Assembly (NCBI GenBank): GCA_030524285.1
Contig: JAUNGQ010000003.1
Span: 1-64,000 of the forward strand
Direction of reading: 5' to 3'
Length of the DNA stretch: 64,000 nucleotides
Source: Eubacteriales bacterium
Lineage (GTDB): Bacteria > Bacillota > Clostridia > Oscillospirales > Butyricicoccaceae
The notes under the pieces are model-generated. The model searched no databases. It saw nothing but the letters and a program-made list of their open reading frames with translations, and was not told the DNA's origin. The position numbers were made by a program, and so were the translations under genes. Positions 18,889 to 34,806 of this stretch are shown one piece after another; position 1 is the first letter of the stretch, and every line of letters begins with the position of its first letter.

Positions 18889-19249
18889 CTATAATTGTGG
18901 TTCCAGCTCAGCCCGAAGCTTGAGTAAAGCTTTTTTTTCAATGCGGGACACATAGGAGCGTGAGATTTTGTGTAGCTTTGCAACCTCGCGCTGTGTCAGA
19001 GGTATATGACCGTTTAATCCATACCGCAACTGGATAATTTCTTTTTCCCTCGGATTCAGAACATGCAGAGCATGGAAAATTAACTGGCTTTGATCGCTCA
19101 GGTCAATTTGTTCCAGTGCATGATCCTGAACACTCAGGACATCAATCAGGGAAAGGGAATTTCCGGTACTGTCTTGATCCATTGGTTCATCCAAAGAAAT
19201 TTCATTCGAGAGCTTTTTAGAGGAACGGAAGTACATAAGGATTTCATTT
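18889..19249 (-). CDS. sigK: sigK, 3' part (sigma-K regions 3-4), split gene
   Basis: Encodes the C-terminal half of the late mother-cell sigma factor sigma-K. Sense reading from the AAATG core gives NEILMYFRSSKK, then SLDEPMDQD, ISLIDVL-like SLIDVLSV, the region 4 motif REKEIIQLRYGL and the helix-turn-helix end ISRSYVSRIEKKAL. There is no start codon of its own: upstream of the core the frame runs into antisense-frame recombinase sequence. Together with 34470-34806 it rebuilds a 230-residue protein (693 bases, exact multiple of three). The protein is not made until the intervening 15.2 kb is removed. Confidence 0.92.
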
Positions 19250-21025
19250 GCTATCCTCACACAAAAACGGTTTTGAATTGTTAAAAGAATTGTTTTCTTC
19301 ATAGTCGATATCGGGAAATGGCTCCAGCTCGTTGATTTTTTTGCTGTACAGATTGGAAATATCGGGATATTCCATATCATCTTCCAACGCTCCGAACAAG
19401 ATAACGTGTGTATTTTGCCCATCCCAAATCACCTTACGGATTACTGTGCGGATAGCGGTCCGCTTTTGTTCAATAGTCATATTATCGATGCTGGCTTTAA
19501 AAACAGAAAGCAATTGAGAAAGAATAGTAAATTCCATGTTACTGAGTGCGTGCTGAGAGGTCAGTCCAATCAGTTCTTTTATCCGAGCATCCAATCCTTC
19601 ATATTCCAGATGCAGCTGTTCCATACGCCGGATGACATGTTCCTTTGCGCTGCTGTCATCCAGTTCTGCCAGGGAATCTACCAGAGCATCAATTCTCTTT
19701 TTTGTCTCAGTTTTCTCTTGCTTTAATTCAGTAAGTTTTTCCTCATACTGTGTACGGTTTTTGGTATAAAATCTGCGGTTTTGCCCCAACTGATCGATGA
19801 AAGTATTTTTATCATCCTCCAATGTTTTTATTTGATCGATGATCGCTGCATCCAGAGTATTTCCATTTGCATTTCTAACATTACAAAGACTGCGCTTGCT
19901 ACGCTCTTTCATTTTGCATACATAGGTGTAAATCAGATCCCCGTCAACAGTTTTCCGCTTGGACAATTTGGGGTACATTTTATTTCCACAGCGACAATAA
20001 AGCAATCCGGTCAATAATGCGTCACTGCTGCGAGGTCTGCGAAAGGTTTTGGATTTATTGTGTTCCAGAGATTCTTGTACACTGACCCAAATCTTGCCGG
20101 GAATTAGTCCGGGATGCTGACCGACAGATACAATCCATTCGCTGATGGGAAGATAAACAGTAGATTTTCCTTTGTTCTGATCTGTTCGATTATAGGCGAG
20201 TATACCATGCTGCCCATCAAATGCACTGTAGTCGGAAAACAAATCTGCATTTTTTTGCGTAAAATAGGAATAAGCAGCATTGTCTGCAATCAGGTATACA
20301 GGATTCTGCAAAATTGCTTTGATAGAAAAGCGGGTGAAGTATTTTCCGTTCTTTGTGACGATCTGGCGATTCATCAATTCGGATTCTGTCGAGGTAAGAG
20401 AATTGGTTTCAATAAAGAGATCATAAATCGTCTTGACAATCTCAGCTTCTGCGGGTATCAATTTTAGTTTACAGACTTTTTTTATCTTGCCATCTACAGT
20501 CACACGGTTGACACTCTCAGAAGCATAGCCTGTTGGCGTGGTTCCACCCAGCCAGCGTCCAGTCTTTGCCAGCTCATGCATATTGTCACGGATACGTTCT
20601 GCAATCGTTTCCCGTTCCAGTTGAGAGAATACAGATGCAATATACATCATGGCACGTCCCATTGGTGTGCTGGTATCAAACTGCTCTTTGATAGAAATAA
20701 ATGCAATACCAAAATGACATAGTTCTTCGATTAAATTTGAAAAATCACTGATATTGCGACTAATGCGGTCAAGACGATAGACAATGATGGCATTGAATTT
20801 TCGTTCCTTTGCTGCGGCCATCATCTTTTTAAAGTCGGGACGGTTCAGGTTGCCTCCGGAAAAACCCTCATCTTCATAGATTATGACAGTATTGAGCGCT
20901 TTTTCGTCGTAGTGTGCGCGAATATATTCTTTGCAGAGCTCAATTTGGTTGCCGATGCTTTCGCCTTTGCCTGTGAATTTTGACTTGCGGGAATAAATGG
21001 CAATGCGGTCTTCATTCTTTTTCAT
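19244..21025 (-). CDS. spoIVCA: Large serine recombinase (SpoIVCA-type skin excisionase)
   Basis: A 593-residue site-specific recombinase. The resolvase domain (about 1-150) has the catalytic serine Ser12 in YSRKS, then YEDEGFSGGN and VYRLDRISRN; the recombinase domain follows, with a zinc ribbon (CRCGNKMYP ... CKMKERSKRSLCN) near 350-390 and a long coiled coil around 410-500 typical of large serine integrases. ATG 21025 is 8 bases after AGGAG. It is transcribed in the same direction as sigK and its last codons run into the attachment core, so its stop codon TGA uses core bases. The obvious substrate is the sigK split site. Confidence 0.92.
   Translation of the reverse strand: MKKNEDRIAIYSRKSKFTGKGESIGNQIELCKEYIRAHYDEKALNTVIIYEDEGFSGGNLNRPDFKKMMAAAKERKFNAIIVYRLDRISRNISDFSNLIEELCHFGIAFISIKEQFDTSTPMGRAMMYIASVFSQLERETIAERIRDNMHELAKTGRWLGGTTPTGYASESVNRVTVDGKIKKVCKLKLIPAEAEIVKTIYDLFIETNSLTSTESELMNRQIVTKNGKYFTRFSIKAILQNPVYLIADNAAYSYFTQKNADLFSDYSAFDGQHGILAYNRTDQNKGKSTVYLPISEWIVSVGQHPGLIPGKIWVSVQESLEHNKSKTFRRPRSSDALLTGLLYCRCGNKMYPKLSKRKTVDGDLIYTYVCKMKERSKRSLCNVRNANGNTLDAAIIDQIKTLEDDKNTFIDQLGQNRRFYTKNRTQYEEKLTELKQEKTETKKRIDALVDSLAELDDSSAKEHVIRRMEQLHLEYEGLDARIKELIGLTSQHALSNMEFTILSQLLSVFKASIDNMTIEQKRTAIRTVIRKVIWDGQNTHVILFGALEDDMEYPDISNLYSKKINELEPFPDIDYEENNSFNNSKPFLCEDSK
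19245..19249 (-). other. Skin element attachment core at the sigK 3' part
   Basis: The 5-base core AAATG (minus strand) lies within GATAGC-AAATG-AAATCCTTATG. It is identical to the core at 34470-34474 and holds the same codon phase (AAT G). The B. subtilis skin core is the similar AATGA. The stop codon of the recombinase gene (TGA) overlaps this core. Confidence 0.8.
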
Positions 21026-21052
21026 TTGGTAGTCTCCTGACATCAAAATGTA

Positions 21053-21073
21053 ATATGATATGTGCTATCATAT
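21053..21073. promoter_or_regulatory. Perfect palindrome upstream of the recombinase gene
   Basis: ATATGATA and TATCATAT flank a 5-base centre, 28 bases before the recombinase start codon and next to its ribosome site. It may be an operator controlling recombinase expression. The rest of 21074-21318 holds AT-rich promoter-like sequence for the divergent ABC ATPase gene and nothing else I can name. Confidence 0.45.
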
Positions 21074-21318
21074 TATGAAGCAGCATGAAAATAACCATAA
21101 AATGGGATTTCGTTTGTTTTTGTGACCCGTTGATAATCGTGGACTGACTGGTTGTAATATAAATATTACGAATCGGGTCTGCGATATCAGAAAATTACCG
21201 ATATTATCAGAAATTTTATATTGTTTTAACACCTATTCAATGTTATGATTAGTTTACAAAATATATGGTTTTGGATCTCTCCCAAATACAGAACCTATTA
21301 TTTTTGGAGGAAGAAACG

Positions 21319-22413
21319 ATGGCAGGCATTACATTTACCCATGTAAACAAAACCTATCCGGGCAACGTAGAAGTTGTTCCTGATTTGAATCTTGAAATTA
21401 AAGATAAGGAATTTGTCATTCTGGTAGGACCGTCTGGCTGTGGCAAATCTACTACACTTCGTATGATTGCAGGTCTGGAAGATATCACCAGCGGCGAGTT
21501 GCGCATCGGTGATCGTGTTGTAAACGATGTAGCGCCGAAGGATCGTGACATTGCCATGGTATTCCAGAACTATGCGCTGTATCCTCATATGTCGGTTTAC
21601 AAGAACATTGCCTTTGGTCTTCAGCTGCGCAAGGTTCCCAAGGATGAAATTGACAAGAAGGTACATGAAGCAGCAAAGATCCTTGATCTGGAGCATCTTT
21701 TGGACCGTAAGCCGAAAGCGCTTTCTGGCGGCCAGCGGCAGCGTGTTGCTCTGGGACGAGCAATGGTAAGAAACCCATCGGTATTCCTGCTGGATGAACC
21801 GTTGTCCAACTTGGATGCAAAGCTGCGTACTTCCATGCGTTCGGAAATCAGCAAGCTGCATAAGAGACTGGATACTACATTTGTATATGTAACCCATGAC
21901 CAGACCGAAGCGATGACAATGGGTGATCGCATCTGTGTTATGAAGGATGGTATTATCCAGCAGTTCGACACACCACAGACATTGTATGATACGCCGTGCA
22001 ACCTGTTTGTAGCAGGATTTATCGGTTCTCCGCAGATGAACTTTATCAATGCGAAGATTGTCAGGGAAGGTTCCGGTGTCAGCGCGCAGTTTGGCGGTTT
22101 TTCTCTGCCGCTGAATGCAAGCAAGTCTGCTGCACTCAAGAACTATGTAGGCAAGGATGTTATCATTGGCATCCGTCCGGAGGACTTTGTAGAAGCAGAT
22201 CAGGCAGATGCAGGTATCATTTCCACAAAGGTAGACCTTGCAGAGCTGATGGGCTCCGAAACCAATCTGTATCTTGATTGTGCGGGGACCAAGCTGATTG
22301 CCCGTATGCCGGCTTCTGTACGTGTTGCAGAGCGTGCGCAGTATTCTCTGGCAGTTAAGCTGGATAAAATCCACGTTTTCGATATGGAGACTGAGCAGGC
22401 AATCTGCCACTAA
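21319..22413 (+). CDS. Sugar ABC transporter ATP-binding protein (MsmX/UgpC type)
   Basis: A 364-residue CUT1-family ATPase that powers oligosaccharide or polyol importers from the cytosolic side. Walker A GPSGCGKST is at 37-45, the Q-loop FQNYALYPHMS follows, LSGGQRQR is near 135 and Walker B VFLLDEPLSNLDAKLR near 155; a C-terminal MalK-like OB domain completes it. ATG 21319 follows TTGGAGGAAG. No permease or binding protein is present in the element, so it may act as a shared multi-sugar ATPase for importers encoded elsewhere. Confidence 0.93.
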   Translation: MAGITFTHVNKTYPGNVEVVPDLNLEIKDKEFVILVGPSGCGKSTTLRMIAGLEDITSGELRIGDRVVNDVAPKDRDIAMVFQNYALYPHMSVYKNIAFGLQLRKVPKDEIDKKVHEAAKILDLEHLLDRKPKALSGGQRQRVALGRAMVRNPSVFLLDEPLSNLDAKLRTSMRSEISKLHKRLDTTFVYVTHDQTEAMTMGDRICVMKDGIIQQFDTPQTLYDTPCNLFVAGFIGSPQMNFINAKIVREGSGVSAQFGGFSLPLNASKSAALKNYVGKDVIIGIRPEDFVEADQADAGIISTKVDLAELMGSETNLYLDCAGTKLIARMPASVRVAERAQYSLAVKLDKIHVFDMETEQAICH

Positions 22414-22418
22414 AGCAT

Positions 22419-23342
22419 ATGAAGTGGATTTTTGAGCGTGGGAAGCCAGCGGATTTTTACGAATATTCTGATAGCTCCAACTCAAAAAAGTTAACACCAA
22501 TAAGCTCCGATGAAACCATTCGGGGCTTATTGGCAGTTTCTGCTGCAATTCGGCTGGGGCTGGAGAATGCAGAGACTTTCACAGTACAAATGGAAGAGCC
22601 GGAAAATTTACTGCTGATTACAACAGAGCGCGGACAGCTTGAGCTGAACGGCTCCGGGCAGGACTGGAAGCTTTTCGGAGGACAGGTTATTATGCTTCAG
22701 CCCTCTGATATGCCCTGCCAGTTGACTGGCGGGGAGAAAAGTACGGTTATCCTGCTTTCATGTACCGGCACACTGGTGCATCAAATCCTTGCGGAAAAGC
22801 TGAAAGATGGCAGAATCTTTTGCCACGACGGTGCGGCTTATATCATACAAACGCTTCATGCGTTGAAGCAGGACGAAACAATGCCGGAGGATATTTCTGT
22901 TGCAATCTATCGCCTGCTGCTCAAGCTGTATGTTTCCGCAGACTGGTACAAAGAGAGTAAGGGCTATCCGTTGCTGGTACAGACTGCAATTGAGATCATC
23001 CATCATGAATTTGCAATGCTGGACGGTGTTGAAGAGATTGCGGACAGGCTTGGTATAACGTCAAATCATTTGATCCGGCTGTTTTCGGCAACTGTGGGTG
23101 TTTCACCGGGAAAATATTTAAAGCGCAGAAAGCTGGAATGTGCAAGTCAGCTTCTGGTACAACCAGAGATGAATGTGACTTTGGCAGCTGCCTTATCCGG
23201 ATTTTCAGAAGCAAACTATTTTTCAAAAATATTTCGGCGGGAATTTGGTGTGACACCCCGTCAATATCGGGAATCACATTGTCCCATTGTAATTACAGAT
23301 AGCATTATCAAACAACTACTTGATGAGTCTGCCCTTTGGTAG
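22419..23342 (+). CDS. AraC-family transcriptional regulator
   Basis: A 307-residue regulator with an N-terminal cupin-like sensing region (LLLITTERGQLELNG, residues ~65-100) and two C-terminal helix-turn-helix motifs (VEEIADRLGITSNHLIRLF and the SGFSEANYFSKIFRREFG signature near 265-285). It begins 5 bases after the ABC ATPase gene and probably shares its transcript, so control of carbohydrate uptake is likely. The ribosome site is poor, which makes the start uncertain. Confidence 0.85.
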   Translation: MKWIFERGKPADFYEYSDSSNSKKLTPISSDETIRGLLAVSAAIRLGLENAETFTVQMEEPENLLLITTERGQLELNGSGQDWKLFGGQVIMLQPSDMPCQLTGGEKSTVILLSCTGTLVHQILAEKLKDGRIFCHDGAAYIIQTLHALKQDETMPEDISVAIYRLLLKLYVSADWYKESKGYPLLVQTAIEIIHHEFAMLDGVEEIADRLGITSNHLIRLFSATVGVSPGKYLKRRKLECASQLLVQPEMNVTLAAALSGFSEANYFSKIFRREFGVTPRQYRESHCPIVITDSIIKQLLDESALW

Positions 23343-23481
23343 CCTAATACAGCGGTATGAGCCGCGCTATTTTGTACATGGTCATACACATTTGAATTAT
23401 GGTATGCATATCCAGCGTTGCATTCAGGTTGGTAAAACAACCATTGTGAACGCATATGAACGATATTTTTTACAGCTTTGA
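23323..23481 (+). pseudogene. C-terminal remnant of a metallophosphoesterase
   Basis: A 52-codon frame overlapping the end of the AraC gene reads SLIQRYEPRYFVHGHTHLNYG and ends VGKTTIVNAYERYFLQL. The metal-binding GHTH motif plus the VNAYERY ending is the C terminus of a calcineurin-like phosphoesterase; the first three quarters of the gene are missing. It looks like a scar of an earlier insertion or deletion within the element. Confidence 0.65.
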
Positions 23482-23606
23482 TGCGGATTTATCACCGAAT
23501 TTTGGTGTGAAAAGAAAGTCAACAATTCATTATGCATAGGCAATATTTCGTAAATATTCAGTAATATCAGACAGCTCCTCCTTCATAAATTCCAAATGGT
23601 GGGGAG

Positions 23607-23825
23607 GTGCGTGGTATTAGAAGAAGTGCTCCGATTCATATCATAATTCATTATCCGAAAACAGAAGCGGGAAAGTGTGAATTGACACGGAGAGTGGCCG
23701 ATATCCATGCTGATATGGTAAACCGACATATTCAAAAATTGAATTGTCCATCAGAACAGAAAATTGCATTATTGGATGCCGTGATTGAAGCAGCATCAAA
23801 AGAGAAAGGCGGACAGACCGAGTGA
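23607..23825 (+). CDS. Small conserved-looking protein, possibly frameshifted
   Basis: A 72-codon frame from GTG 23607, with IHIIIHYPKTEAGK, HADMVNRHIQKL and PSEQKIALLDAVIEAA. The composition looks like a true small helical protein; I associate similar sequences with mobile elements of gut Firmicutes but cannot prove it. The first codons are doubtful: another frame from GTG 23611 with better spacing to GGGGAG reads VVLEEVLRFIS then stops, so the original start may have been lost by a frameshift. The flanking stretches 23482-23606 and 23826-23930 show nothing recognisable. Confidence 0.5.
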   Translation: MRGIRRSAPIHIIIHYPKTEAGKCELTRRVADIHADMVNRHIQKLNCPSEQKIALLDAVIEAASKEKGGQTE

Positions 23826-24062: not shown

Positions 24063-24219
24063 TCCGGCGAATGGAAAACAGATGAACGAATGTATTTCCA
24101 AACAGCTGCAAAAGGCGGCATTAAATTTGGACAGGTTCCGACGTAGAATGAGTTCAACGAAAAGGTCATAACGTAAAGCAAACGCAGGATGACCAAATAT
24201 GAAAGAGGAGGAAGTTTCG

Positions 24220-25020
24220 ATGAATCAAAACTGGTTGGAATTGGAGGACAAGGTTGTCATTGTAACTGGCGGTGCATCCGGTATCGGAAAGCACGTTGTG
24301 GATACGCTGACGAAGGTTGGTGCACAAGCAGTTGTTGTCGATATGAATGTTGAAACAGGTGCAGAGCTGGACGGCGCTTACTGTGTACAATGCAATGTGA
24401 CCGACAGCGCAAGTGTACAGGCAATGGCAGATACTGTTGTAGCAAAGTTTGGACGGATTGATGCGCTGGTAAATAATGCAGGCATTAACCTGCCGCGTCT
24501 GCTTGTCGATGTTGTCGGTGAAAAGCCGCAATATGAATTGAATGATGAATCATTCAACAAGATGTTTGCCGTCAATGTGAAGGGTGTATTTTTGTGTGCA
24601 CAGGCTTGTGCAAAGCAGATGCTGAAGCAGGGAAAGGGCGTTATCGTTAATATGTCTTCGGAATCGGGCAAGGAAGGCTCGCAGGGACAGTCCGCATATT
24701 CTGCAACCAAGGGTGCGGTTGACAGCTTTACTCGTTCGTGGGCAAAGGAGCTTGGCAAATACAATATTCGAGTGCTGGCTTGTGCACCAGGCATTATGGA
24801 AGCTACCGGACTGCGCACCGCAGCATATAATGAAGCGCTTGCATATACCCGCGGCTGTAAGCCGGAGGATTTGTCCACAGATTACAGCAAGGTTATTCCA
24901 ATGGGACGTGACGGCAAGCTGGATGAGGTTGGCGATCTGGTAGCTTATCTGGTATCTGACCGAGCAAGCTACATTGCAGGTACAACAATCAATATTTCCG
25001 GAGGTAAGTCACGCGGCTGA
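24220..25020 (+). CDS. gutF: Sorbitol-6-phosphate 2-dehydrogenase
   Basis: A 266-residue short-chain dehydrogenase that oxidises sorbitol 6-phosphate to fructose 6-phosphate with NAD. TGGASGIG (residues ~16-23) is the cofactor loop, NNAG lies near 85, and YSATK gives the catalytic Tyr/Lys near 160. Assignment to sorbitol 6-phosphate rests on the surrounding glucitol PTS genes. ATG 24220 follows GAGGAGG; the longer start at 24199 precedes that site. First gene of the gut operon. Confidence 0.9.
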   Translation: MNQNWLELEDKVVIVTGGASGIGKHVVDTLTKVGAQAVVVDMNVETGAELDGAYCVQCNVTDSASVQAMADTVVAKFGRIDALVNNAGINLPRLLVDVVGEKPQYELNDESFNKMFAVNVKGVFLCAQACAKQMLKQGKGVIVNMSSESGKEGSQGQSAYSATKGAVDSFTRSWAKELGKYNIRVLACAPGIMEATGLRTAAYNEALAYTRGCKPEDLSTDYSKVIPMGRDGKLDEVGDLVAYLVSDRASYIAGTTINISGGKSRG

Positions 25021-25048
25021 TAGAACCAAAGAAAGGAGCGCTGGCAAG

Positions 25049-26968
25049 GTGAAGAGTTTGTTTCATGACAACCGCATAGCAAACATACTACAATTTCTGC
25101 GAAAGACGCCGGAAGTAACAGTCAGCGCTCTGGCTTCCCGATTGGGTGTAAGCGAACGGACTGTACGCAATGATATCAAGCAGATCAATCAGGAACTACA
25201 GGATTGTGCCGTGATTGATGGCGTACAGGGGAAATATAGTCTACGGATTTTTCAGGCAGAACGCTTCCGTGAAATCTTTTCCGAAATGATTCAGGCGGAT
25301 GAATTTCTCAACTCATCCCGGAACCGTATGGATTATATGTTTGGCAGGCTGATGCGTTCGGATGAACCATTGCTGACCGACGAGCTGGCGTATGAAATGA
25401 ATGTCGGACGTACAACCCTGATGAGTGATCTGAAAAAACTGCGGGAGGAAATTGAGGACTATCAGCTAAAAATCATCGGTAAAACGAGTAAAGGACTGAT
25501 GCTACACGGCACGGAAACCAATATCCGCAAATATGTTCTAAATGGTGTATATGCATCCGTTTATCAGGAATATCCATTGGATCAGGAAATTATCGAGGAA
25601 ATTCAGAAGACTTTTTCGTTGCATTCCTTTGAGAAAAGTGTGCGGGATTCCTTTGAACAGTTTACAACGCTGATGCTGGATCGCTTTCTGACAGGACACT
25701 ATATTGGACTGCTGCCGCAGCGATATTACAATCTGACAGCACGTGCGGAATTTGCCGTCATTGACCAGCTTGTTGACCGGTTTTCGCAGATATTACATAT
25801 CCGAATTCCGATTGAAGAAAAGCTGTTTGTCTTTCTCCCCATTGCAGGAATGCGGACACCGGCAGATATTCAGGATATGCGTTCGATTGAACTGGATGAC
25901 ACTGTCCGGCCGTTGATGCGGAAAATCCTGCGTCGGGTTAAGATGGAAATGGATATTACCATCCAAAGCGGTGAATTTACAGAAGAATTTTTATATCATC
26001 TGATGTTCATGATGAATCGGCTTCGGTTTCATGTCCCGTTAAAGAACCCTATGCTGGAGGATTTGAGAGAAAAATATCCGCTTGCCTATAAAATGGCGGG
26101 AATTGCCGCACAGGTTGTGCAGGAGGAATATCAGTTGATTGTCACAGAGGATGAACGCGGCTATCTGGCATCCTACTTCGGTGTTTTTCTGACAGAAACG
26201 GATTTGAAGCAGGAAAAACCGTTTCAGGTTGCAGTGGTTTGTGGAACCGGACGGGTTACGGCGCGGCTTGTTGCTGTACAGTTGAAAAAAATTCTGGATA
26301 GCTCAGCACAGATACAGCTTTTTGCCGATGAAAAGGTCAATCAGGAGCTGTTGGATGAATTTGATATTGTGCTGACAACAGTGGATTTGCCGTGCTCCTG
26401 TGATCGCCCGATTATCCGTATTCATGAAATATTCAATGAACGTGAACTGCTGCATAAAATCGAAAAAGCAAGGTATTGGGATCAAATCAAAGTACCGGTA
26501 CTGGATAACAACTGGTTTGTTATGAGTGCGTTGCTGGATGAGAGCCGATTCTTTGTTTTGAAAGAACCGGACAATTATCAGTCTGCGATAGATTATATGG
26601 TAAACAGTCTGATAGCAAGCGGGCAGGTGGATGACCGGTTTGCAGAGCGGTTACGGGAACGGGAGCAAAAAGGTACGATGGTGTTTGACCATTCAGTAGC
26701 AATTCCGCACAGTATACAGTATGCCAGTGACAAGCTGATGCTCTCGATCGGCGTATTTCCACAGGCTGTTCAATATGGGGATCATGATATCCGTGTGATT
26801 TTCCTGATCGGACTTCCGTCTCAGGTGGAAGCAGATGATAATCTGTTGATCCGCGTTTATGATGAAATTATCAGTATAACCAAGGATGAGGAGCTGCTAC
26901 ATAAAATTGCTTCGGCAGATTCCTTCTCGGCATTGCTCCGTGTGCTGTATCGGCACATTGGAGAATAA
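25049..26968 (+). CDS. gutR: PTS-controlled transcriptional activator of the sorbitol operon (GutR)
   Basis: A 639-residue BglG/MtlR-type regulator. Order: N-terminal HTH (VSALASRLGVSERTVRNDI, about 25-43), a second HTH-like region near 110, two PTS regulatory domains (about 170-385), an EIIB-like domain with a CGTGRVTARL loop (about 400-480) and a C-terminal EIIA-like domain with His554 in VAIPHS. Phosphorylation by HPr/EII components should tune activity to sorbitol flux. I place the start at GTG 25049, 10 bases after AAAGGAG; the frame upstream overlaps gutF. Confidence 0.88.
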   Translation: MKSLFHDNRIANILQFLRKTPEVTVSALASRLGVSERTVRNDIKQINQELQDCAVIDGVQGKYSLRIFQAERFREIFSEMIQADEFLNSSRNRMDYMFGRLMRSDEPLLTDELAYEMNVGRTTLMSDLKKLREEIEDYQLKIIGKTSKGLMLHGTETNIRKYVLNGVYASVYQEYPLDQEIIEEIQKTFSLHSFEKSVRDSFEQFTTLMLDRFLTGHYIGLLPQRYYNLTARAEFAVIDQLVDRFSQILHIRIPIEEKLFVFLPIAGMRTPADIQDMRSIELDDTVRPLMRKILRRVKMEMDITIQSGEFTEEFLYHLMFMMNRLRFHVPLKNPMLEDLREKYPLAYKMAGIAAQVVQEEYQLIVTEDERGYLASYFGVFLTETDLKQEKPFQVAVVCGTGRVTARLVAVQLKKILDSSAQIQLFADEKVNQELLDEFDIVLTTVDLPCSCDRPIIRIHEIFNERELLHKIEKARYWDQIKVPVLDNNWFVMSALLDESRFFVLKEPDNYQSAIDYMVNSLIASGQVDDRFAERLREREQKGTMVFDHSVAIPHSIQYASDKLMLSIGVFPQAVQYGDHDIRVIFLIGLPSQVEADDNLLIRVYDEIISITKDEELLHKIASADSFSALLRVLYRHIGE

Positions 26969-26997: not shown

Positions 26998-27450
26998 ATG
27001 ATAAAACTGGCATTGGTTGTTGCAGCAGCATTTGTGCTGCAAATCATCCTGAGTATGAATCAAATGCGGCATTTTTCCAGTGAATTTGTCAAACTACGGC
27101 GGCAGGGAAAGGTAGCCTGCGGACGCAAGGCAGGCGGCTTCCACGCCGGAGCAATCGTGATGTTTCTAATCGATGATAACGGCGTGATTCAGACCGCGCG
27201 TAAGCTAGAAGGCGTTACCTGTTTGGCGCGTGTTCACGAGCTGCATGGCTTTCAAGGCAGGCAAATTGCAGAGCTGACAGAAGAGGATGGGCCGAAAGGT
27301 CATCGTAATCTGAAAAAGGCGATTGCAGATGCTGCACTGACCTATCGGAAGTATACGGCAGGCGAAGTTATTCCAGAACCGCCATCCCCATTCCAGAAGG
27401 TAGGACGTTCCGTGGGAGGTATTTTTACAAAAAAATCAACTGCAAAATAA
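26998..27450 (+). CDS. gutM: Glucitol operon activator GutM
   Basis: A 150-residue protein with an N-terminal membrane segment (residues 2-19) and the GutM/SrlM body (GRKAGGFHAGAIVMFLID, then ARVHELHGFQGR). GutM homologues assist transcription of sorbitol genes in enterobacteria and lactobacilli; the mechanism is not known. The start follows ACGGAGG. It lies between gutR and the PTS genes as in other glucitol operons. Confidence 0.88.
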   Translation: MIKLALVVAAAFVLQIILSMNQMRHFSSEFVKLRRQGKVACGRKAGGFHAGAIVMFLIDDNGVIQTARKLEGVTCLARVHELHGFQGRQIAELTEEDGPKGHRNLKKAIADAALTYRKYTAGEVIPEPPSPFQKVGRSVGGIFTKKSTAK

Positions 27451-27465: not shown

Positions 27466-28020
27466 ATGGACTTCATTGTTAATTTAGCATCAGGTTTCAT
27501 GAATCTGTTTTCCCTCGGTGGTGAACAGTTTGTAAGCTGGGTAACCGGCATTATCCCAACCATTGTTATGCTGCTGGTTCTGATGAATGCAATCATCGCA
27601 CTGGTAGGTGACGAAGCAATCGCGAAGCTGGCGCGTGTCTGCACCGGCAATCCGATTCTGCGGTATGCGGTGCTCCCGTTTGTCTCTGCATTTATGCTGG
27701 GCAACCCGATGGCGCTTTCTATCGGCAAGTTCATGCCGGAATTCTATAAGCCATGCTACTATGCATCCGCAACGTATCACTGCCATACCAACAGCGGTAT
27801 TTTTCCACATATCAATGCATCTGAAATTTTCATTTATCTCGGCATTGCAAACGGCATTACCCAGCTGGGGCTGGATACCACACCGTTGGCAATCCGTTAT
27901 CTGCTGGTAGGTATTGTCTGCAACTTTATCTCCGGCTGGGCAACTGAATTTACCACAAAGCTGGTTGAGAAGCAGCAGGGTAAGAGGCTGAGCCGTGAGC
28001 TCAAGGTAGCAGCACACTAA
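27466..28020 (+). CDS. srlA: PTS glucitol/sorbitol transporter subunit IIC
   Basis: A 184-residue integral membrane protein of the glucitol PTS (EIIC, GutA/SrlA), with four or five hydrophobic spans and the family segment [21 protein letters not shown]. Together with SrlE it forms the sorbitol channel. AAAGGTGG precedes the ATG, and srlE follows after 14 bases. Confidence 0.92.
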
Positions 28021-28034: not shown

Positions 28035-29051
28035 ATGGCTGAATATAGATCCATCAAGGTTGAAAGAGGTTCCGGCGGATTTGGCGGTCCTCTGGTTATT
28101 ACACCGACAGAAAAGCGCAATAAGGTTATGTACATAACCGGCGGCGGAGCTGCACCGGAATGCCTCAATAAGATTGTTGAACTAACCGGTTTGATTCCGG
28201 TAAATGGCTTTAAGACCAACTGTCCGGAGGATGAACTGGCGCTGGTTATTATTGACTGTGGCGGCACACTGCGCTGCGGTATCTACCCGAAGAAGCGGAT
28301 CCCAACAATCAATACCAATCCGGTTGGCAAGTCCGGCCCGCTCGCACAGTTTATCACAGAAGACATTTATGTTTCCGGCGTTACCTCCAAGCAGGTTTCT
28401 CTGGCTGACGGCACAGAAGCTCCGGCTCCGGCAGCAGAGCCTGCTGAAGAAAAGAAGGACGAAGGCGTGAAGTTTACCGCTGATAGGAAGGTTTCCGAAA
28501 CGCTGGCAGCACAGGAGAAAAAGAGCTTCGTTACCGTCATTGGCCTGGGCGTAGGCAAGGTTGTCAACACCTTCTATCAGGCGGCGCGCGATGCCATTCA
28601 GACGTGTATTACTACGTTGCTCCCGTTCATGGCATTCGTTTCCATGCTCATCGGTATCATCAATGGTTCCGGCTTTGGCGATGCCTTTGCATCCATTCTG
28701 ACACCGTTAGCTGGTAATATTGTTGGTCTGATCATCCTGGGCATTATCTGTTCCATTCCTGGCCTGTCTGCACTGCTTGGCCCTGGCGCAGTTATTGCAC
28801 AGATTGTCGGCACACTGGTTGGCGCTGAAATCGGAAAGGGCAACATTGCACCGCAGCTGGCTCTTCCGGCACTGTTTGCAATCAATACACAGGGCGCATG
28901 CGACTTTATCCCGGTTGGTCTGGGTCTGGCAGAGGCTGAGACAGAAACCATTGAGGTTGGTGTTCTGTCAGTTATGTACTCACGATTCCTCACCGGCTGG
29001 ATCCGTGTCCTGATTGCATATGCTGCAAGCTTCGGCCTGTACGCAGCATAA
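28035..29051 (+). CDS. srlE: PTS glucitol/sorbitol transporter subunit IIBC
   Basis: A 338-residue EIIBC protein. Residues 1-120 form the cytosolic IIB domain, with the candidate phosphocysteine in [11 protein letters not shown]; a linker rich in Ala/Pro/Glu (about 115-150) joins it to the C-terminal membrane domain (about 165-338) with [14 protein letters not shown] and [21 protein letters not shown]. It receives phosphate from SrlB and passes it to incoming sorbitol. Start ATG 28035 after AAGGAGG. Confidence 0.92.
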
Positions 29052-29119
29052 TTCACATCATTTCACCCATTACATCAATCACACTGCCTATCCAATCTTC
29101 TTTTTCAATTCTCTACATG

Positions 29120-29170
29120 GCGGCATCCGGAACTTTCCGACGGATGCCGCAGCCCGGAACTTTTTCCGGG
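29120..29170 (+). terminator. Two tandem hairpins between srlE and srlB
   Basis: GCGGCATCCG/CGGATGCCGC (29120-29129 and 29141-29150, perfect) is followed by CCCGGAA/TTCCGGG (29153-29159 and 29164-29170). T-rich loops but no final T run. They may lower read-through, protect the upstream mRNA end, or set the ratio of EIIBC to EIIA. Confidence 0.5.
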
Positions 29171-29260
29171 TTGTCTGAACAGGAAAATCGTTGTGATTTC
29201 CTGCTGAGGCGACTCGAAAAACGATATTATGTTGGAAATACAGATACAGGAGGATGTATT

Positions 29261-29626
29261 ATGAAAGTCATTTATGAAAATCAGGTTAAAGCGCTGGGCG
29301 TAAGTGTGGAAGAGTTTAAGGATGCAGGCATGCTGATTATTTTCGGTGATAATGCACCGGAAGAAATCCGTGATTACTGTTATTCTGTCAGCGTTAATCC
29401 AATTCATGGTACGATTGCAGCAGGACAGACACTAAAGTTTGATAACAACGAGTACAAGATCACCGCTGTTGGCAGTGAAGCGCCAGTAACACTTGCCGGA
29501 TTGGGGCACTGTACTGTCAATTTCAGCGGACAGACAACAGTTGATCTGCCGGGTACGATTTATGTGGAAAACAAGCCGCAGCCGGAGATTCAGGTGGGTA
29601 CTGTCATCCAGATTGTGGAGAATTGA
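29261..29626 (+). CDS. srlB: PTS glucitol/sorbitol transporter subunit IIA
   Basis: A 121-residue cytosolic EIIA-Gut (MKVIYENQVKALG start, KITAVGSEAPVTLAGLGH and DLPGTIYVE motifs). It takes phosphate from HPr, with a histidine in the NPIHG segment near residue 45 as a candidate acceptor. ATG 29261 follows AGGAGG; the ORF upstream to 29117 consists of hairpin sequence. An HPr paralogue is encoded 3.4 kb downstream in the same element. Confidence 0.92.
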   Translation: MKVIYENQVKALGVSVEEFKDAGMLIIFGDNAPEEIRDYCYSVSVNPIHGTIAAGQTLKFDNNEYKITAVGSEAPVTLAGLGHCTVNFSGQTTVDLPGTIYVENKPQPEIQVGTVIQIVEN

Positions 29627-29689: not shown

Positions 29690-29765
29690 GCCTGTGCTTT
29701 AGCGTGGACAGAGGGAGTCGATAAAAACTTTGTGGCATAAATTTATAGAAGAGGAGAATGGAGAA

Positions 29766-31109
29766 ATGATTAAGCTGAACATCAAGAACGCAGGACTGCG
29801 TGCAGGCGAACTGGAAAAGATGAAGCCGATTGTAGGTACTGCGTATCAGACATTGATGGAACGTTCCGGTGCAGGAGCAGAAATGCTGGGCTGGCTGAAC
29901 CTGCCGAATGAGTACGATAAGGAAGAGTTTGACCGCATCAAGGAAGCCGCAAAACGTATTCAGAAGCAGAGTGATGTGCTGGTTTCCATTGGAATCGGCG
30001 GCAGCTATCTGGGTGCACGTGCAGGCATTGAGTTTACCAAAGGGCCGTTTGCAAATCAGATGGCAGGCAAGGGAGATGGCGTAGAGGTTTACTTTGCAGG
30101 CAGTAATATCAGCTCGGATTATGTGCAGAATATCATGGATATCATCGGTGAGCGTGATTTTTCCGTCAATGTCATTTCCAAATCCGGTACAACGACAGAA
30201 CCGGCGGTGGCGTTCCGCCTGTTCAAGGAGAAGCTGGAGGAAAAGTATGGAAAAGAAGGCGCAAAGTCCCGCATTTATGCAACGACCGATGCCAGGAAGG
30301 GTGCACTGCGCGGTCTGGCAATTGAGGAAGGCTATGAAACCTTTGTTGTACCGGATGCTACTGGTGGACGTTTCTCCTGTCTGACTGCGGTAGGTTTGCT
30401 CCCGATGGCAGCAGCAGGCATGGACATTGACGCAGTTATGAAGGGCTGTGGCGATGCATGTGAGAAGTATAACAATCCGGATCTCATGACCAACGACACC
30501 ATGCTGTATGCTGCGCTGCGCTTCCTGATGCTGATGAAGGGGAAGAGCATAGAAATTCTGGCAAACTATGAGCCGTCTCTGACCATGTTTGGTGAGTGGT
30601 ATAAGCAGCTGATGGCAGAATCCGAAGGTAAGGACGGAAAGGGCGTGTTCCCGGTGTCTGCAAACTTCTCCACGGATCTGCACTCCATCGGACAGTTCAT
30701 TCAGGATGGTGCACGCACCATGTTTGAAACCGTTCTGTGGGTTGAGGAATCCCGTCAGGATCTGATTGTACCGTATGACCCGGCGAATGTAGATGGCTTG
30801 AACTTTGCTTCCGGTAAAACCATGCAGTATATGAATGAAAAGGCAATGAAGGGCACGCTGCTGGCGCATGTTGACGGCGGTGTTCCAAATCTGATTATTA
30901 CAGTTGATAAACTGAATGATTATACCTTTGGTGAAATGGTATACTTCTTCTGGAAGAGCCTTGCGCTTTCCGGCTATATGATCGGTGTCAATCCGTTTGA
31001 CCAGCCGGGTGTTGAGGCATACAAGAAGAATATGTTTGCACTGCTGGGCAAGCCGGGGTATGAGGACATGAAAGAAGCATTGGAGAGCCGGTTGGAAAAT
31101 CTGAATTAA
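29766..31109 (+). CDS. pgi: Glucose-6-phosphate isomerase
   Basis: Interconverts fructose 6-phosphate and glucose 6-phosphate. The 447-residue protein is the short Firmicutes/Thermotoga-type Pgi with [14 protein letters not shown] near residue 77, [11 protein letters not shown] near 139, the catalytic Glu region FGEWYKQL near 278 and the [12 protein letters not shown] end. ATG 29766 follows GAAGAGGAGAATGGAG. Its position after the sorbitol genes lets fructose 6-phosphate made by GutF move to glucose 6-phosphate. It lies inside the excisable sigK element, an unusual place for a central enzyme. Confidence 0.96.
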
Positions 31110-31193
31110 CCACATATGAACCTTTCAACTTGTTCTACTCTCTACATCTGTCAAAGCTGTGTACTTGCATGGCTTTGGCAATCAAGAAAAGCA

Positions 31194-31222
31194 TTGCTTT
31201 TTTGAAACACAAGAGTTATAAT
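31194..31222 (+). promoter_or_regulatory. Probable promoter of the ROK-HAD-HPr operon
   Basis: TTGCTT (31194-31199), a 17-base spacer and a perfect TATAAT (31217-31222) lie 36 bases before the ROK start codon. Confidence 0.55.
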
Positions 31223-31258
31223 ACTTTAATAAAAGACTTTTGTAATGAGAGGGATTCT

Positions 31259-32404
31259 ATGACATCAGGTAATGCGGGGAAAAAGCAAAATCAATATCGG
31301 ATCCTTCAACTTCTGTGGAAAGAAGGAACATTGACACGGCAGGATATCGCACAGAAATTGAATCTGAGTATGCCGACAACCCTGCAAAATACCAATGAAC
31401 TGCTGGAATATGGGATACTACAGGAATGCGGTGCAATGGAATCCACCGGCGGGCGAAGGGCAAAGAAGCTTGTATTAAATGAAAATTTTGGCCTAGGGCT
31501 GGGCATTGACATTGCGCTACAGCATGTTGAGCTGGTCATTACCAATCTGCATGGACGCGTGATGATACAGGATACGTTGCCACTTATCTTTCGGGACGAA
31601 ATAGAATGGTATCATGCATTTCAACAGGGACTGCATACATTTCTTCACGACAATGACGTTGAAACAGCTCGAATTATTGGAGCAGGGCTTTCCTTTCCCG
31701 GAATCATAGATGGTGAAGCGGAGCAGATTATCCGATCCCATATTTTCCAGCTCGAGCATGTCAGTCTGGATCGATTCAAAAAATGTATCCCGTTTCCATT
31801 GATAGCTGCCAATGATGCAAACTGTGTATGCTTTGCCGAACGGAGCGTAGAACACACGACATACTTGTATCTTTCGCTCAATGAATCGGTTGGCGGGGCA
31901 ATGATGCTAGATAGCAGGCTGGAATTGGGGGATACATGGCAGAAAGGGGAAATCGGGCATATGTTGCTCTTTCCAGGAGGAAAGCAGTGCTATTGTGGCA
32001 AGCATGGCTGTGCAGACCCATACCTATCTCCCAATGCTTTACGGAAGGAAGGGCAGAGCTTGGACGATTTCTTCATGAAGGTGGAGCAGGGGGATGTGGA
32101 CTCCTGTAAACGCTGGGATGAATATATGGATCATCTGGCAATTATGGTGACCAACTTGCGTATGCTGTGTGATGAAGATATTATAATCGGCGGTGTGGTT
32201 GGAACGTATATGAAGCCGTACATGGAACAGCTCAATGCAAAAGCTGCGCAATATGACCGGTTTGCCCGTGATGTGGATTATATTTATCCATGTACAAGAA
32301 AAACGCATGCATTTGCTGCCGGAGCATCCATGATTGCAATGGAGCGTTACGGCAGCCGTTTACTGGACGATAATATGCTGATGAAGTTGAGGAAAAAATC
32401 ATGA
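31259..32404 (+). CDS. ROK-family transcriptional regulator (NagC/XylR type)
   Basis: A 381-residue protein with an N-terminal winged helix (about 15-65; LTRQDIAQKLNLSMPTTLQNTNELL) and a C-terminal ROK sugar-kinase-like domain (IGAGLSFPGIIDG, AANDANC, KGEIGHMLL) with the zinc motif CYCGKHGC near residue 246. It probably senses a sugar or sugar phosphate and represses the element's sugar genes (inference). ATG 31259 follows GAGAGGG; the extension to 31130 spans the promoter and is rejected. Confidence 0.9.
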   Translation: MTSGNAGKKQNQYRILQLLWKEGTLTRQDIAQKLNLSMPTTLQNTNELLEYGILQECGAMESTGGRRAKKLVLNENFGLGLGIDIALQHVELVITNLHGRVMIQDTLPLIFRDEIEWYHAFQQGLHTFLHDNDVETARIIGAGLSFPGIIDGEAEQIIRSHIFQLEHVSLDRFKKCIPFPLIAANDANCVCFAERSVEHTTYLYLSLNESVGGAMMLDSRLELGDTWQKGEIGHMLLFPGGKQCYCGKHGCADPYLSPNALRKEGQSLDDFFMKVEQGDVDSCKRWDEYMDHLAIMVTNLRMLCDEDIIIGGVVGTYMKPYMEQLNAKAAQYDRFARDVDYIYPCTRKTHAFAAGASMIAMERYGSRLLDDNMLMKLRKKS

Positions 32405-33051
32405 AATTAGGCGCAATATTTGATATGGATGGACTGCTTTTCGATACAGAACGTCTGTATCAGGAAAATTGGATTGTAGTTGCAAAGGAATTTGGTCAGC
32501 AGCCGCATCCCGATTTTCCGAAAGCAATTTGTGGAACCAGCGGAATCCATGCACAGGAAGTCGTATATAACCACTATCCTACTGTAGATGCAGCAGCTTT
32601 TATTCAAAGCTGTATTGATAAGGTGAACAGAATTTTGCAGAATTCTATACCTGAAAAGCCGGGAATCCATGAAATATTAAGTTATTTGCATGAAAAAGGT
32701 GTCCGAATTGCCGTTGCCAGTAGCAGCGTGAAGCCAATGGTGGACCATAATCTGAAATTGGCGGGCATTTCACAGTATTTTGATGTTGTTGTCAGTGGAC
32801 AGGAGGTGATGTATGGCAAACCGGAACCGGATATTTTTCTGTTAGCCGCAAAGAAGCTGGGACTTTCTTCTATGGATTGTTATGTATTTGAAGATGGTAT
32901 CAACGGTGTGCGTGCTGGTATTGCAGCCGGATGTGCAACAATTATGATACCTGATTTAACACAACCAACGGAAGAGTTACGTTCTGCCTGTGCAGGCATT
33001 TACAGTAGTCTGCTTGAAGCGAAGATAGCTTTGGAGCAGGGAGAAATTTAA
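32401..33051 (+). CDS. HAD-family hydrolase, beta-phosphoglucomutase-like
   Basis: A 216-residue HAD-IA protein: motif I FDMDGLLFDTE (7-17), motif II ASSSVKP near 102, Lys in YGKPEPDIF near 140 and motif IV FEDGINGVRAG near 162. This group includes beta-phosphoglucomutases and sugar-phosphate phosphatases; the substrate is not decided. Its ATG overlaps the ROK stop (ATGA), implying coupled expression with that regulator. Confidence 0.87.
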   Translation: MKLGAIFDMDGLLFDTERLYQENWIVVAKEFGQQPHPDFPKAICGTSGIHAQEVVYNHYPTVDAAAFIQSCIDKVNRILQNSIPEKPGIHEILSYLHEKGVRIAVASSSVKPMVDHNLKLAGISQYFDVVVSGQEVMYGKPEPDIFLLAAKKLGLSSMDCYVFEDGINGVRAGIAAGCATIMIPDLTQPTEELRSACAGIYSSLLEAKIALEQGEI

Positions 33052-33070
33052 TTGATAAGGAGAGAGCAAT

Positions 33071-33328
33071 ATGAAGAGTTTTACATTTACCATTACAGAT
33101 CCGGAAGGCTTCCATGCCCGTCCAGCAGGTATGTTTGTCAAGGAAGCAAAAAAATTCCCGTGCACAACAACCGTGATTAAGGGTGGTAGATGTGCAAATG
33201 CAAGCAAAATGTTTACCTTAATGGGACTTGGCATCAAGGGTGGCCAGGAGATTACTGTTGAAACAGAAGGTGAGCAGGAAGCAGAAGCAGCTGCTGCACT
33301 GGAAGCATTCCTGAAGGCAAATCTGTAA
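33071..33328 (+). CDS. HPr-family phosphocarrier paralogue
   Basis: An 85-residue PTS phosphocarrier. His15 in GFHARPAG is the phosphate-accepting residue from enzyme I. The regulatory serine region differs: ANASKMFTLMGLG gives Ser45 and Lys46 where the HPrK/P target Ser46 is expected, so catabolite-repression control by HPr kinase may be lost. Located with the sorbitol PTS, it may be a dedicated HPr for this element. Start after AAGGAGAG, 19 bases after the HAD gene. Confidence 0.9.
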   Translation: MKSFTFTITDPEGFHARPAGMFVKEAKKFPCTTTVIKGGRCANASKMFTLMGLGIKGGQEITVETEGEQEAEAAAALEAFLKANL

Positions 33329-33505
33329 GTTTGTCTATTTCATTCTATTATTTTATTTATTCCCAAAGAGTGCCTGTTCCTGTCAACAGGGGCAGACCCG
33401 AAAGAAATGATGTTTCAGAGATTCTGATTTCTGGAAAAATATAAAACAATTACAGGAACAACGTACATAACACATTGGCTTGTAAAGCAATACAGGCAAT
33501 AAAAA

Positions 33506-33558
33506 GACCTCTTATCACTGGCATGAGATGCCGAGGGATAAGAGGTCATAATTTTTTT
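33506..33558 (+). terminator. Strong terminator after the HPr gene
   Basis: GACCTCTTATC (33506-33516) pairs perfectly with GATAAGAGGTC (33537-33547), with an inner GGCAT/ATGCC stem, followed by T7 at 33552-33558. The preceding 33329-33505 shows no gene. Confidence 0.85.
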
Positions 33559-33591
33559 CAGGATTGTAAGACGCCGGGTACTGTGGTTGGA

Positions 33592-34248
33592 TTATAACTT
33601 GGAATAGCCAAAGGAATTGACCATCGCTTCCACAGGTATCTTTTTCTGGCAGTAAGGGCAGGAATGACCATCGTAGGATGCATAGCCCGGAATATCATCA
33701 CTGGTAAAGATGGTGTTGACCGGAACATCATCCATATGTTTCACTGCGCTGAAAATGGTAGCGACGCCTCGGATCAAACCGCCGTAGTATCCCATGCATT
33801 CAATACCACGACGAATGCTGATACCGGTTGTGACGGAGGCCATGAGCAGAATCACATTTTTTCCACGGACCATTGGCTCGACATTTTCACGGAAGAACAG
33901 CTGACTATTCGCAGTACGCTCTGGATTGATAACATAGATCGTCTGGTGCTTATTGCGGATGGAATGTCCGGCGTTTTTCAATTCCTGCGCAAGGAATGTA
34001 CCAATGACATCTGTACCGTCCAAACATACAATGGTGTCAATTGGGATTGGGCTGTCGGCATATTGCTGTGCCAGAATATGCGCACATTGAGAAGCTTCAC
34101 TCAAACGGGACTTGATGGTTGTCAAATCAATATAATAATTGATATGCGAGTGGTTGGTAACAAAATGTCCCGGAATAGCCTTGAGAGGTACCATTTTACT
34201 GTACTTTCTTGACGGATACTTGATGATTCTGGATTCTAATGTGCTCAT
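33592..34248 (-). CDS. Phosphoribosyltransferase-like protein (OPRT-related)
   Basis: A 218-residue protein related to orotate phosphoribosyltransferase-type PRTases: CLDGTDVIGTFLAQEL near residue 76 and VILLMASVTTGISIRRGIE near 135 at the PRPP-loop position, where the usual acidic pair is replaced (LMASVTTG). A CPYCQKK pair near the C terminus follows. Because the acidic PRPP-binding residues are missing it may bind rather than transfer; the role is unknown. ATG 34248 follows GGAGGAG. It is the last cargo gene before the sigK 5' part. Confidence 0.75.
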   Translation of the reverse strand: MSTLESRIIKYPSRKYSKMVPLKAIPGHFVTNHSHINYYIDLTTIKSRLSEASQCAHILAQQYADSPIPIDTIVCLDGTDVIGTFLAQELKNAGHSIRNKHQTIYVINPERTANSQLFFRENVEPMVRGKNVILLMASVTTGISIRRGIECMGYYGGLIRGVATIFSAVKHMDDVPVNTIFTSDDIPGYASYDGHSCPYCQKKIPVEAMVNSFGYSKL

Positions 34249-34332
34249 ATGCTCCTCCTTTGCCGACATATACAATACATCTGATCTGATTTGGCAATTC
34301 TCACATTTTTGTGCGTGTCAAACTCTATAATT

Positions 34333-34806
34333 CTATGTATAGTATACAATGAAGTTGAGAAACATGCAAGCATATCTGGAAAAAAAGTCAGGCTTCTGCG
34401 TTATTTCTATCACATTATGAAAAGGCCTGTTACAGAGTATCGAAGAGAAAACCATTTGTGATAGCATAGCATTTTCAATACAACGGGAAATATAAGTAGC
34501 CAGCCTTACATTTTTCTCAGGGTTAAAGGTTGAAACACCTTTGATCAGCCCAATGGTTCCAATGGAAATCAGATCATCGGAATCCGCAGCAGTGGAGTAA
34601 TATTTTTTTACAATGTGTGCAACCAGACGCAGATTATGTTCAATAAGCGTTTCTCGTGCTTTGGCATCACCCTGTAGCATGGACTGAATGCAGACTGCCT
34701 CCTGCTCGGCGCTGAGTGGACGAGGGAATGAACCACCCGGGGAGGAGACACGCAGGATACAGAAAGCAGCGCTGCACAAAAGAAATGTAGAAATAGAAAA
34801 CAGCAT
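34333..34806 (-). CDS. sigK: sigK, 5' part (pro-sequence and sigma region 2), split gene
   Basis: Encodes the N-terminal half of pro-sigma-K. From ATG 34806 it reads a hydrophobic pro-sequence (SISTFLLCSAAFCIL), then the cleavage-region-like FPRPLSAEQE, NLRLVAHIVKK and the region 2 motif DLISIGTIGLIKG through RCIEN. At the AAATG core (34470-34474) the true gene is interrupted; the unrearranged frame runs a further 45 codons into the element and stops at 34333. Joined at the core to 18889-19244 it continues RCIENEILMYF, exactly as in intact sigma-K proteins. A GGACAA box at 34853-34859 could be a SpoIIID site (weak inference). Confidence 0.9.
   Translation of the reverse strand: MLFSISTFLLCSAAFCILRVSSPGGSFPRPLSAEQEAVCIQSMLQGDAKARETLIEHNLRLVAHIVKKYYSTAADSDDLISIGTIGLIKGVSTFNPEKNVRLATYISRCIENAMLSQMVFSSILCNRPFHNVIEITQKPDFFSRYACMFLNFIVYYT
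34470..34474 (-). other. Skin element attachment core at the sigK 5' part
   Basis: Core AAATG (minus strand) in the context TGTATTGA-AAATG-CTATGCTATCAC. The element-side arm GCTAT(C) is the inverse of the (G)ATAGC arm at the other end, so the excised circle would carry ATAGC-AAAT-GCTAT, a palindrome centred on the core. Confidence 0.8.

Follow-up and report, generated by a model that had tools for sequence, protein, structure and literature searches.

A large serine recombinase element carrying a sorbitol operon splits sigK in a member of the Butyricicoccaceae

Organization of the split sigK locus

We analyzed a stretch of 64,000 nucleotides (hereafter the window) from Eubacteriales bacterium, a member of the family Butyricicoccaceae (NCBI GenBank assembly GCA_030524285.1, contig JAUNGQ010000003.1, positions 1 to 64,000 of the forward strand), in which sigK is present as two pieces on the same strand. 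The pieces lie 15,225 bp apart, measured from core to core, and enclose a large serine recombinase, a small conserved open reading frame termed ORF72 and a sorbitol operon. The whole probably forms a sigK-intervening element that would be cut out in the sporulating mother cell. An earlier reading, made from the sequence only, had described the interval as a skin-type element of about 15.2 kb with metabolic genes in place of phage genes, and the split itself was borne out by profile matches, core repeats and a gap-free rejoined frame.

The N-terminal SigK match spans positions 34453-34806 on the minus strand and covers profile positions 1-116, while the C-terminal match (18904-19266, minus strand) covers profile positions 108-227. 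The pentanucleotide AAATG forms the core at both junctions (34474-34470 and 19249-19245); it went unreported in the repeat search of the window, for which the minimum repeat length was above 5 bp. Rejoining the two halves at this core by script yielded an open reading frame of 230 amino acids. Aligned with the intact sigK of a sister genome (G003), the rejoined gene matched over 693 of 693 nucleotides with 0 gaps and 77.5% identity.

Both cores carry an arm sequence, and within the window the arm motifs were found at the two sigK junctions only. The right arm, a motif of 14 bases searched with up to two mismatches, was matched in 48 of 100 shuffled sequences and means little on its own. Together, the left and right arms form a near-palindromic attP around AAATG, as would be expected of a serine integrase. 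An internal att remnant, which would shorten the element, was considered as well, and a motif search of the window gave none. The locus thus has the layout of a skin-type element: a sigK gene split on one strand and restorable in frame, junctions that each consist of a short, directly repeated core with inverted arms, and a large serine recombinase within the element adjoining one half. The coordinates of all features are listed in Table 1.

Table 1. Features of the sigK-intervening interval, in window coordinates
Feature	Position	Strand	Basis and remarks
sigK 3′ half	18889..19249	-	TIGR02846 108-226; own SigK hidden Markov model (HMM) 108-227
attR arm, GAGGATAGCAAATG	19245..19258	-	core AAATG at 19249-19245; its TGA is the recombinase stop codon
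Large serine recombinase (integrase)	19244..21046	-	up to 600 aa; Resolvase, Recombinase and Zn-ribbon domains (Pfam); alignment, tree
MsmK/UgpC-type sugar ABC ATPase	21265..22413	+	NCBIfam, genus search; only close copy found in the draft
AraC-family regulator	22419..23342	+	Pfam
σE-like promoter ATA-N17-CATA upstream of ORF72	23564..23587	+	window sequence ATATCAGACAGCTCCTCCTTCATA
ORF72, small conserved protein, candidate recombination directionality factor (RDF)	23607..23825	+	predicted start ATT at 23616
gutF, sorbitol-6-phosphate dehydrogenase-type short-chain dehydrogenase/reductase	24199..25020	+	NCBIfam PRK06171 above cut-off
gutR, PRD/EIIA-type regulator	24974..26968	+	Pfam
gutM	26998..27450	+	Pfam GutM
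srlA, sorbitol phosphotransferase system (PTS) EIIC	27466..28020	+	single copy in the draft genome
srlE, sorbitol PTS EIIBC	28035..29051	+	
srlB, sorbitol PTS EIIA	29117..29626	+	
pgi paralogue	29730..31109	+	
ROK-family regulator	31130..32404	+	
HAD-family phosphatase	32401..33051	+	
HPr paralogue	33071..33328	+	
Phosphoribosyltransferase-like open reading frame	33592..34275	-	weak PyrE-family match (TIGR01367, E 3e-10, below cut-off); no Pfam match
attL arm, AAATGCTATGCTATCACA	34457..34474	-	core AAATG at 34474-34470; similar motif at the N-half junction of relatives
sigK 5′ half	34470..34806	-	SigK positions 1 to about 112; TIGR02846 2-116; own SigK HMM 1-116

A second intact sigK elsewhere in the genome, which the sequence-only reading had named as the finding that would make the split gene a relic, was not found: no second full-length SigK was detected in the draft genome (1.56 Mb, 73% complete). 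Its sole full-length match of the SigE/SigK type starts at profile position 19, like the SigE-class proteins of the sister genomes, and adjoins another sporulation-type σ factor gene, which by the usual gene order would be sigG.

The recombinase and its relatives

The recombinase reported at one end of the interval was confirmed by its three Pfam domains and by the catalytic Y-S-R motif, which is intact and invariant in an alignment of five sequences. Its gene abuts the sigK 3′ half, and its last codons overlap attR, with the stop codon lying over the attR core (19244-19249). On the predicted circle, the recombinase frame would gain 13 residues.

A scan of named genomes with five recombinases gave at least 540 related loci, the best 80 of which were retained and their neighborhoods searched with a SigK profile derived from 32 intact sequences of the family. 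In 78 of these best 80 loci, the recombinase is followed on its own strand by the sigK 3′ half, at a distance of at most 300 bp in 75 cases; none was found at L150 and L167. At L132, L135 and L176, unlike the other 75, the 3′ half is located 1.4-4.5 kb past the recombinase match, and something may be nested there. The right junction differs by no more than two mismatches from GAGGATAGCAAATGA in 72 of the 78 loci, and the left junctions of relatives mostly read GAAAATGCTATCCTMTC or close variants thereof.

In a quick tree of 163 rows, some of them on long branches, the sigK label required 3 changes compared with a mean of 54.6 after shuffling, and none of 500 shuffles gave a value as low. Judged by record titles, the 84 sigK-labelled rows comprise 25 Oscillospiraceae, 20 Lachnospiraceae, many unplaced Clostridia and one member of the Erysipelotrichaceae (Holdemania). 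Loci on viral contigs look different: a sigK 3′ half accompanies 3 of 80, and most of the others are integrases at about 36-47% identity. One viral contig (L202) encodes a 65% identical recombinase and ends within this gene; on another, a SigK N-part (L200:9671-10030) lies on the strand opposite its integrase, together with an ORF72 homologue.

All 14 genomes picked for a title that names an isolate contain one full-length match, taken as SigE, plus separate N- and C-terminal parts of SigK. In nine of them, N- and C-parts share a contig, at distances of 4.8 to 41 kb. Cultured commensals with such an arrangement include Mediterraneibacter agrestimuris DSM 111629 (4.8 kb), Tyzzerella sp. An114 (about 20 kb) and Sellimonas caecigallum SW451 (about 25 kb). 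The genome of locus L131 (G486) has two C-parts, one with two internal stops, and one N-part. In Faecalibacterium longum (L338-L340), which belongs to a genus usually called non-sporulating, the parts are 41 kb apart and a single element holds two ORF72-family copies.

Closer to the window, seven of the 87 genomes of its GTDB family, itself included, encode the recombinase at E ≤ 1e-90. In one of them (G051, contig C1:194379-272465, L103-L107), the sigK halves are about 78 kb apart and the recombinase lies against the 3′ half. In the draft genome G058, a full SigK is accompanied by an N-part of the attL type (contigs C178 and C185); a mixture of excised and integrated forms was rejected as the explanation, as a 182-base aligned stretch is only 72% identical. 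By these comparisons, the recombinase belongs to a broad clade inserted in sigK, and the locus, far from being unique, represents a large family.

A small conserved gene as candidate excision factor

Two genes of the element had escaped the sequence-only reading: ORF72 and the phosphoribosyltransferase-like open reading frame near attL. ORF72 has 69 protein homologues of 48-104 amino acids, none of which matches a Pfam domain, and its predicted fold is a two-helix hairpin. It is present in all 20 complete elements examined (10 short ones from the named-genome loci, eight whole ones from isolates, the window and G051, for which the match is weak at 33% and E 2e-6), and its orientation is opposite to that of the recombinase in every one. 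Of 398 genomes sampled from the GTDB phylum to which the window belongs, two carry it, the window included; the idea that it was gained horizontally from Clostridia was dropped, since two genomes are too few to tell the source.

The σE consensus combines ATA and CATA at a spacing of about 17 bp. A motif of this type (ATA-N16-18-CATA) was found upstream in 11 of 28 ORF72 regions, compared with a mean of 0.66 and a maximum of 4 in 500 shuffles. Five of nine isolate copies have it too, two of the nine repeating rows of the 28-region set.

The aligned start column of 32 distinct copies reads ATC or ATT in 23 cases, ATG in eight and TTG in one, often preceded by a Shine-Dalgarno-like GGGAGG. At L147, an in-frame TGA is located two codons upstream of the start position, with no standard start between them. 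From the aligned sequences, the conserved ATC/ATT is a candidate case of non-AUG initiation, for which the AUU start of infC provides an example. A weak start codon would fit a gene that needs to be silent in growing cells. Based on its conservation, strand and upstream motif, ORF72 is the best candidate for the excision factor.

The element carries metabolic genes

On the plus strand, the cargo genes follow each other in the order MsmK/UgpC ATPase, AraC regulator, ORF72, gutF, gutR, gutM, srlA, srlE, srlB, pgi, ROK, HAD and HPr, and the assignments given to them by the sequence-only reading were upheld by Pfam and NCBIfam. No phage structural, packaging or lysis genes were recognized among the element genes assigned, ORF72 and the weakly matching phosphoribosyltransferase-like frame being the two that lack another assignment, and comparison of the interval with 50,697 phage records gave one match of 66 bases. 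This agrees with the absence of phage genes claimed before. Pfam and NCBIfam scans likewise detected no relaxase or conjugation genes among the genes of the window element. By gene content it is therefore neither a prophage nor a conjugative or mobilisable element, and by structure it is a sigK-intervening one.

The sequence-only reading had further proposed that differentiation of the mother cell would remove a carbon-use pathway. This stands for sorbitol: judging by a draft that is 73% complete, the element holds the one sorbitol PTS detected and the single close copy of MsmK, and excision would remove both. It does not extend to glycolysis, because a second pgi is located on contig C23 and two further HPr genes on C8 and C19, which would leave glycolysis and the general PTS in place.

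The sorbitol operon is native to the genus

As proposed in the sequence-only reading, we compared the sigK locus of sister species. Of 11 sister genomes, nine have an uninterrupted sigK, G005 has a split one, and none was found in G009 (65% complete). The gene of G005 is split at the same point and accompanied by a recombinase of 58-60% identity, and the genes at both insert ends are different ones, which on visual inspection look like those for a P-type metal ATPase and a sugar symporter. An uninterrupted gene and different cargo thus both occur within the genus.

The sorbitol EIIC gene is present in 10 of 12 genus genomes, the window included, once in each. As far as the contigs reach, the sister stretches are collinear with the window from gutF to ROK, with pgi, HAD and HPr present or not. 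In all seven sisters with both features (G001, G003, G004, G006, G007, G008 and G010), the operon and the intact sigK are located on different contigs; this count leaves out G005, in which the operon contig could be the unseen middle of the sigK insert, and G009 with no sigK. The gutF, srlA and srlE genes are 84-90% identical in DNA sequence to those of the four closest sisters and the flanking genes 72-84%, with no near-copy among them. A close MsmK homologue occurs in five of 11 sisters, in two of which it is followed by an AraC gene 40-42% identical to that of the window.

This divergence and the presence of the operon in 10 of 12 genomes rule out that the element brought it from outside and indicate that it is genus-native. 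From the sequences compared, a native operon has come to lie inside the element. Its neighborhoods differ among the sisters (L309-L318) and share few flanks, the main shared neighbor being a 45% identical symporter pair in G001 and G006; they give no route of capture.

Cargo of related elements

Among the proteins of 170-900 amino acids encoded beside the recombinases, 127 of 254 were scanned. By Pfam, ABC ATPases and histidine kinases are commonest among them, followed by IstB/DnaC-like, MobA/MobL and DUF4143 proteins; GH94 has two members. The 25 PHROG families listed, of 114 in total, include no capsid, tail, portal or terminase, and the same holds for the 25 listed of 62 from eight whole isolate elements (125 of 142 proteins); rarer phage genes in relatives are possible among the remaining families. 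The eight isolate elements include a relaxase, RepA, glycosyltransferases, GH94, GH1 and GH31.

Two relatives carry further metabolic genes. In an Oscillospiraceae metagenome-assembled genome, a complete sigK element of 10.9 kb (L152:888-11793) contains a shikimate-pathway cluster; the matches of aroB, aroC and DAHP synthase exceed the NCBIfam cut-offs, and those of aroE-aroK, aroA and prephenate dehydrogenase fall short of them. The insert of G051 (55 of 63 proteins scanned) encodes an aldehyde ferredoxin oxidoreductase, molybdopterin genes, a PFL-like protein and sugar-type ABC genes. Judging from these annotations, metabolic cargo seems to be recurrent among the relatives, and some members look mobilisable. 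The elements of Holdemania, Tyzzerella An114 and An169 share the recombinase clade, the att sites and ORF72 with the window, but protein clusters and tallies show MobA/MobL relaxase, RepA and DnaC-like genes in elements of this kind, and the window element has none.

Comparison with known gene-intervening elements

The following comparisons draw on excerpts of the cited papers. The skin element of Clostridium difficile, skinCd, is prophage-like, contains 19 genes and interrupts sigK, with the recombinase gene CD1231 abutting the sigK 3′ part; its RDF, CD1234, is a protein of 72 amino acids controlled by σE and SpoIIID (PMC5025042). The window element shares with it the interrupted sigK, the recombinase at the 3′ part, and a small protein of similar size (72 amino acids) preceded by a σE-like promoter. 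It differs in carrying a sorbitol operon where skinCd is prophage-like, and the likeness is drawn from layout, length and promoter type.

In the skin element of B. subtilis, SpoIVCA is the recombinase and the 64-amino-acid Skr the RDF (PMC6957869); the element also holds an ars operon (PMC12607644). Both elements split sigK at a 5-bp core, which reads AATGA in B. subtilis and AAATG in the window, and both have a large serine recombinase, a small protein as RDF (a candidate in our case) and an accessory operon, but the B. subtilis element is phage-derived with many phage genes, and its recombinase lies at the 5′ half, oriented opposite to that half (PMC6957869, PMC12607644, PMC10745906).

The sequence-only reading had taken phage derivation as the background against which this cargo stood out; as a rule for sigK inserts this does not hold. 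A 22-kb sigK island of B. cereus biovar anthracis, excised in sporulation, is a non-prophage insert as well, though with restriction-modification cargo, the recombinase at the 5′ half and another position in sigK (195) (PMC10745906). The gin element of B. cereus resembles ours as a non-prophage gene-intervening element with a recombinase, GirC, and an RDF, GirX, but sits in gerE, and metabolic cargo goes unmentioned in the excerpt (PMC5595907). Non-phage sigK inserts and accessory cargo in skin elements (restriction-modification, ars) are thus already known, and the host-native metabolic operon is, by these excerpts, the new part. We found no report in the open-licence PMC papers searched of a sigK element with a host-native catabolic or biosynthetic operon.

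Proposed excision and alternative explanations

Taken together, these observations make it likely that the interval is a sigK-intervening element with its own recombinase, a predicted excision factor and the only detected sorbitol operon, and that it is cut out in the sporulating mother cell. Excision, its timing in the mother cell and the role of ORF72 are what we infer from this analysis. Because of the anatomy of the element and by analogy to the two studied systems of B. subtilis and C. difficile, we propose the following course of events. On integration, the recombinase would join attP with attB in sigK. During growth, sigK would stay split and the cargo would be in normal use. At sporulation, σE of the mother cell would switch on ORF72, which as RDF would let the recombinase recombine attL with attR. 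This would restore sigK and release a circle bearing the sorbitol and msmK genes, which would perish together with the mother cell; in the forespore, the element would remain integrated. Capture of a single-copy operon would tie the element to its host, since curing would cost sorbitol use.

Several observations weigh against this proposal. Among 8,000 candidates scored of 5.8 billion proteins, no excised or empty-site allele with the rejoined SigK was found; the best intact protein is 87% identical, yet has the same length as the rejoined SigK, which makes the join plausible. The general attP pattern gave 0 matches in viral contigs. As for ORF72, 17 of 28 upstream regions lack the strict σE-like motif, and the shuffle control behind the excess in the other 11 takes no account of relatedness. 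The distance from ORF72 to attL is about 0.5 kb or less in nine of 10 short elements, but 10.6 kb in the window, where the recombinase is 2.6 kb away. The likeness of this protein to CD1234 is one of length and promoter type, and that to Skr one of size. In addition, the sorbitol operon shifts place among the sisters anyway, and its move into sigK therefore need not be adaptive; and with a draft that is 73% complete, all single-copy statements are provisional.

Some of these points would also fit a fixed relic in a lineage that has ceased to complete sporulation, where sigK would be permanently disrupted and the cargo would simply have ended up in a defunct gene. The excised allele missing from both the protein search and the attP search of viral contigs is what a relic would leave, and the incomplete draft adds to this doubt. 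Nevertheless, the sigK halves, the recombinase, ORF72 and both att arms are intact, other sporulation-type σ factor genes are present, and a split sigK with no second full-length copy is the state of all 14 isolate-titled genomes, so we regard a relic as quite improbable. Very improbable, in our view, is an error of binning or assembly that placed the sorbitol operon in a sigK element truly holding other genes. The assembly is a draft, the sister operons lie in differing neighborhoods and longer inserts exist in the clade, but the outer flanks of the element follow the order of the sisters (sigK-HAD-ade in G003 and others, SNF-sigK in G005), and an error would thus need two coordinated misjoins. 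Moreover, the operon is no near-copy of that of any sister genome compared (84-90% for gutF, srlA and srlE), and there is no step in GC content at the joins.

The role given to ORF72 has a competitor of its own. It could be just another conserved element gene, with excision driven by the recombinase alone or by a host factor; its likeness to proven RDFs is one of size and promoter type, its predicted fold is a mere two-helix hairpin, and F. longum has two copies in one element. We consider this rather unlikely, given the occurrence of the gene in 20 of 20 complete elements, its fixed orientation opposite to the recombinase and the σE-like promoter in part of them; according to the excerpts, a second small factor is required in both B. 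subtilis and C. difficile (PMC6957869, PMC5025042). A decayed prophage in which cargo has replaced the phage genes would account for the distant relationship of the recombinase to phage integrases (about 40% identity) and for the sigK 3′ half at 3 of 80 viral-contig loci. Such an origin seems improbable: the element in the window has no phage structural genes, those most closely related to it are chromosomal sigK elements, and the cargo sampled from related elements comprises relaxase and replication genes, again with no phage structural genes among the families listed.

Implications

Most known cases of programmed DNA loss at sporulation genes are excisions of prophage-like DNA. With a sigK-intervening element as the preferred reading, the excisable interval in the window consists of ordinary host metabolism drawn from the genus's own gene stock, and other species have other metabolic cargo at the same site. 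This offers a testable case for why sigK inserts persist: a needed cargo binds the host to the element, and precise excision in a terminal cell makes the insertion nearly free. The survey also provides pairs of recombinases and candidate RDFs with known att sites, several of them in cultured species. More tentatively, and as a possibility we would not yet favor, the sigK site in spore-forming Clostridia and their kin may be a developmentally disposable compartment of the chromosome, served by one recombinase clade and a σE-controlled RDF with an AUC or AUU start and filled with native, sometimes single-copy metabolic operons: sorbitol here, shikimate in L152, sugar-phosphorylase and molybdoenzyme genes in others. 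Every sporulating mother cell would then delete part of its own metabolism, and the spore line would keep it.

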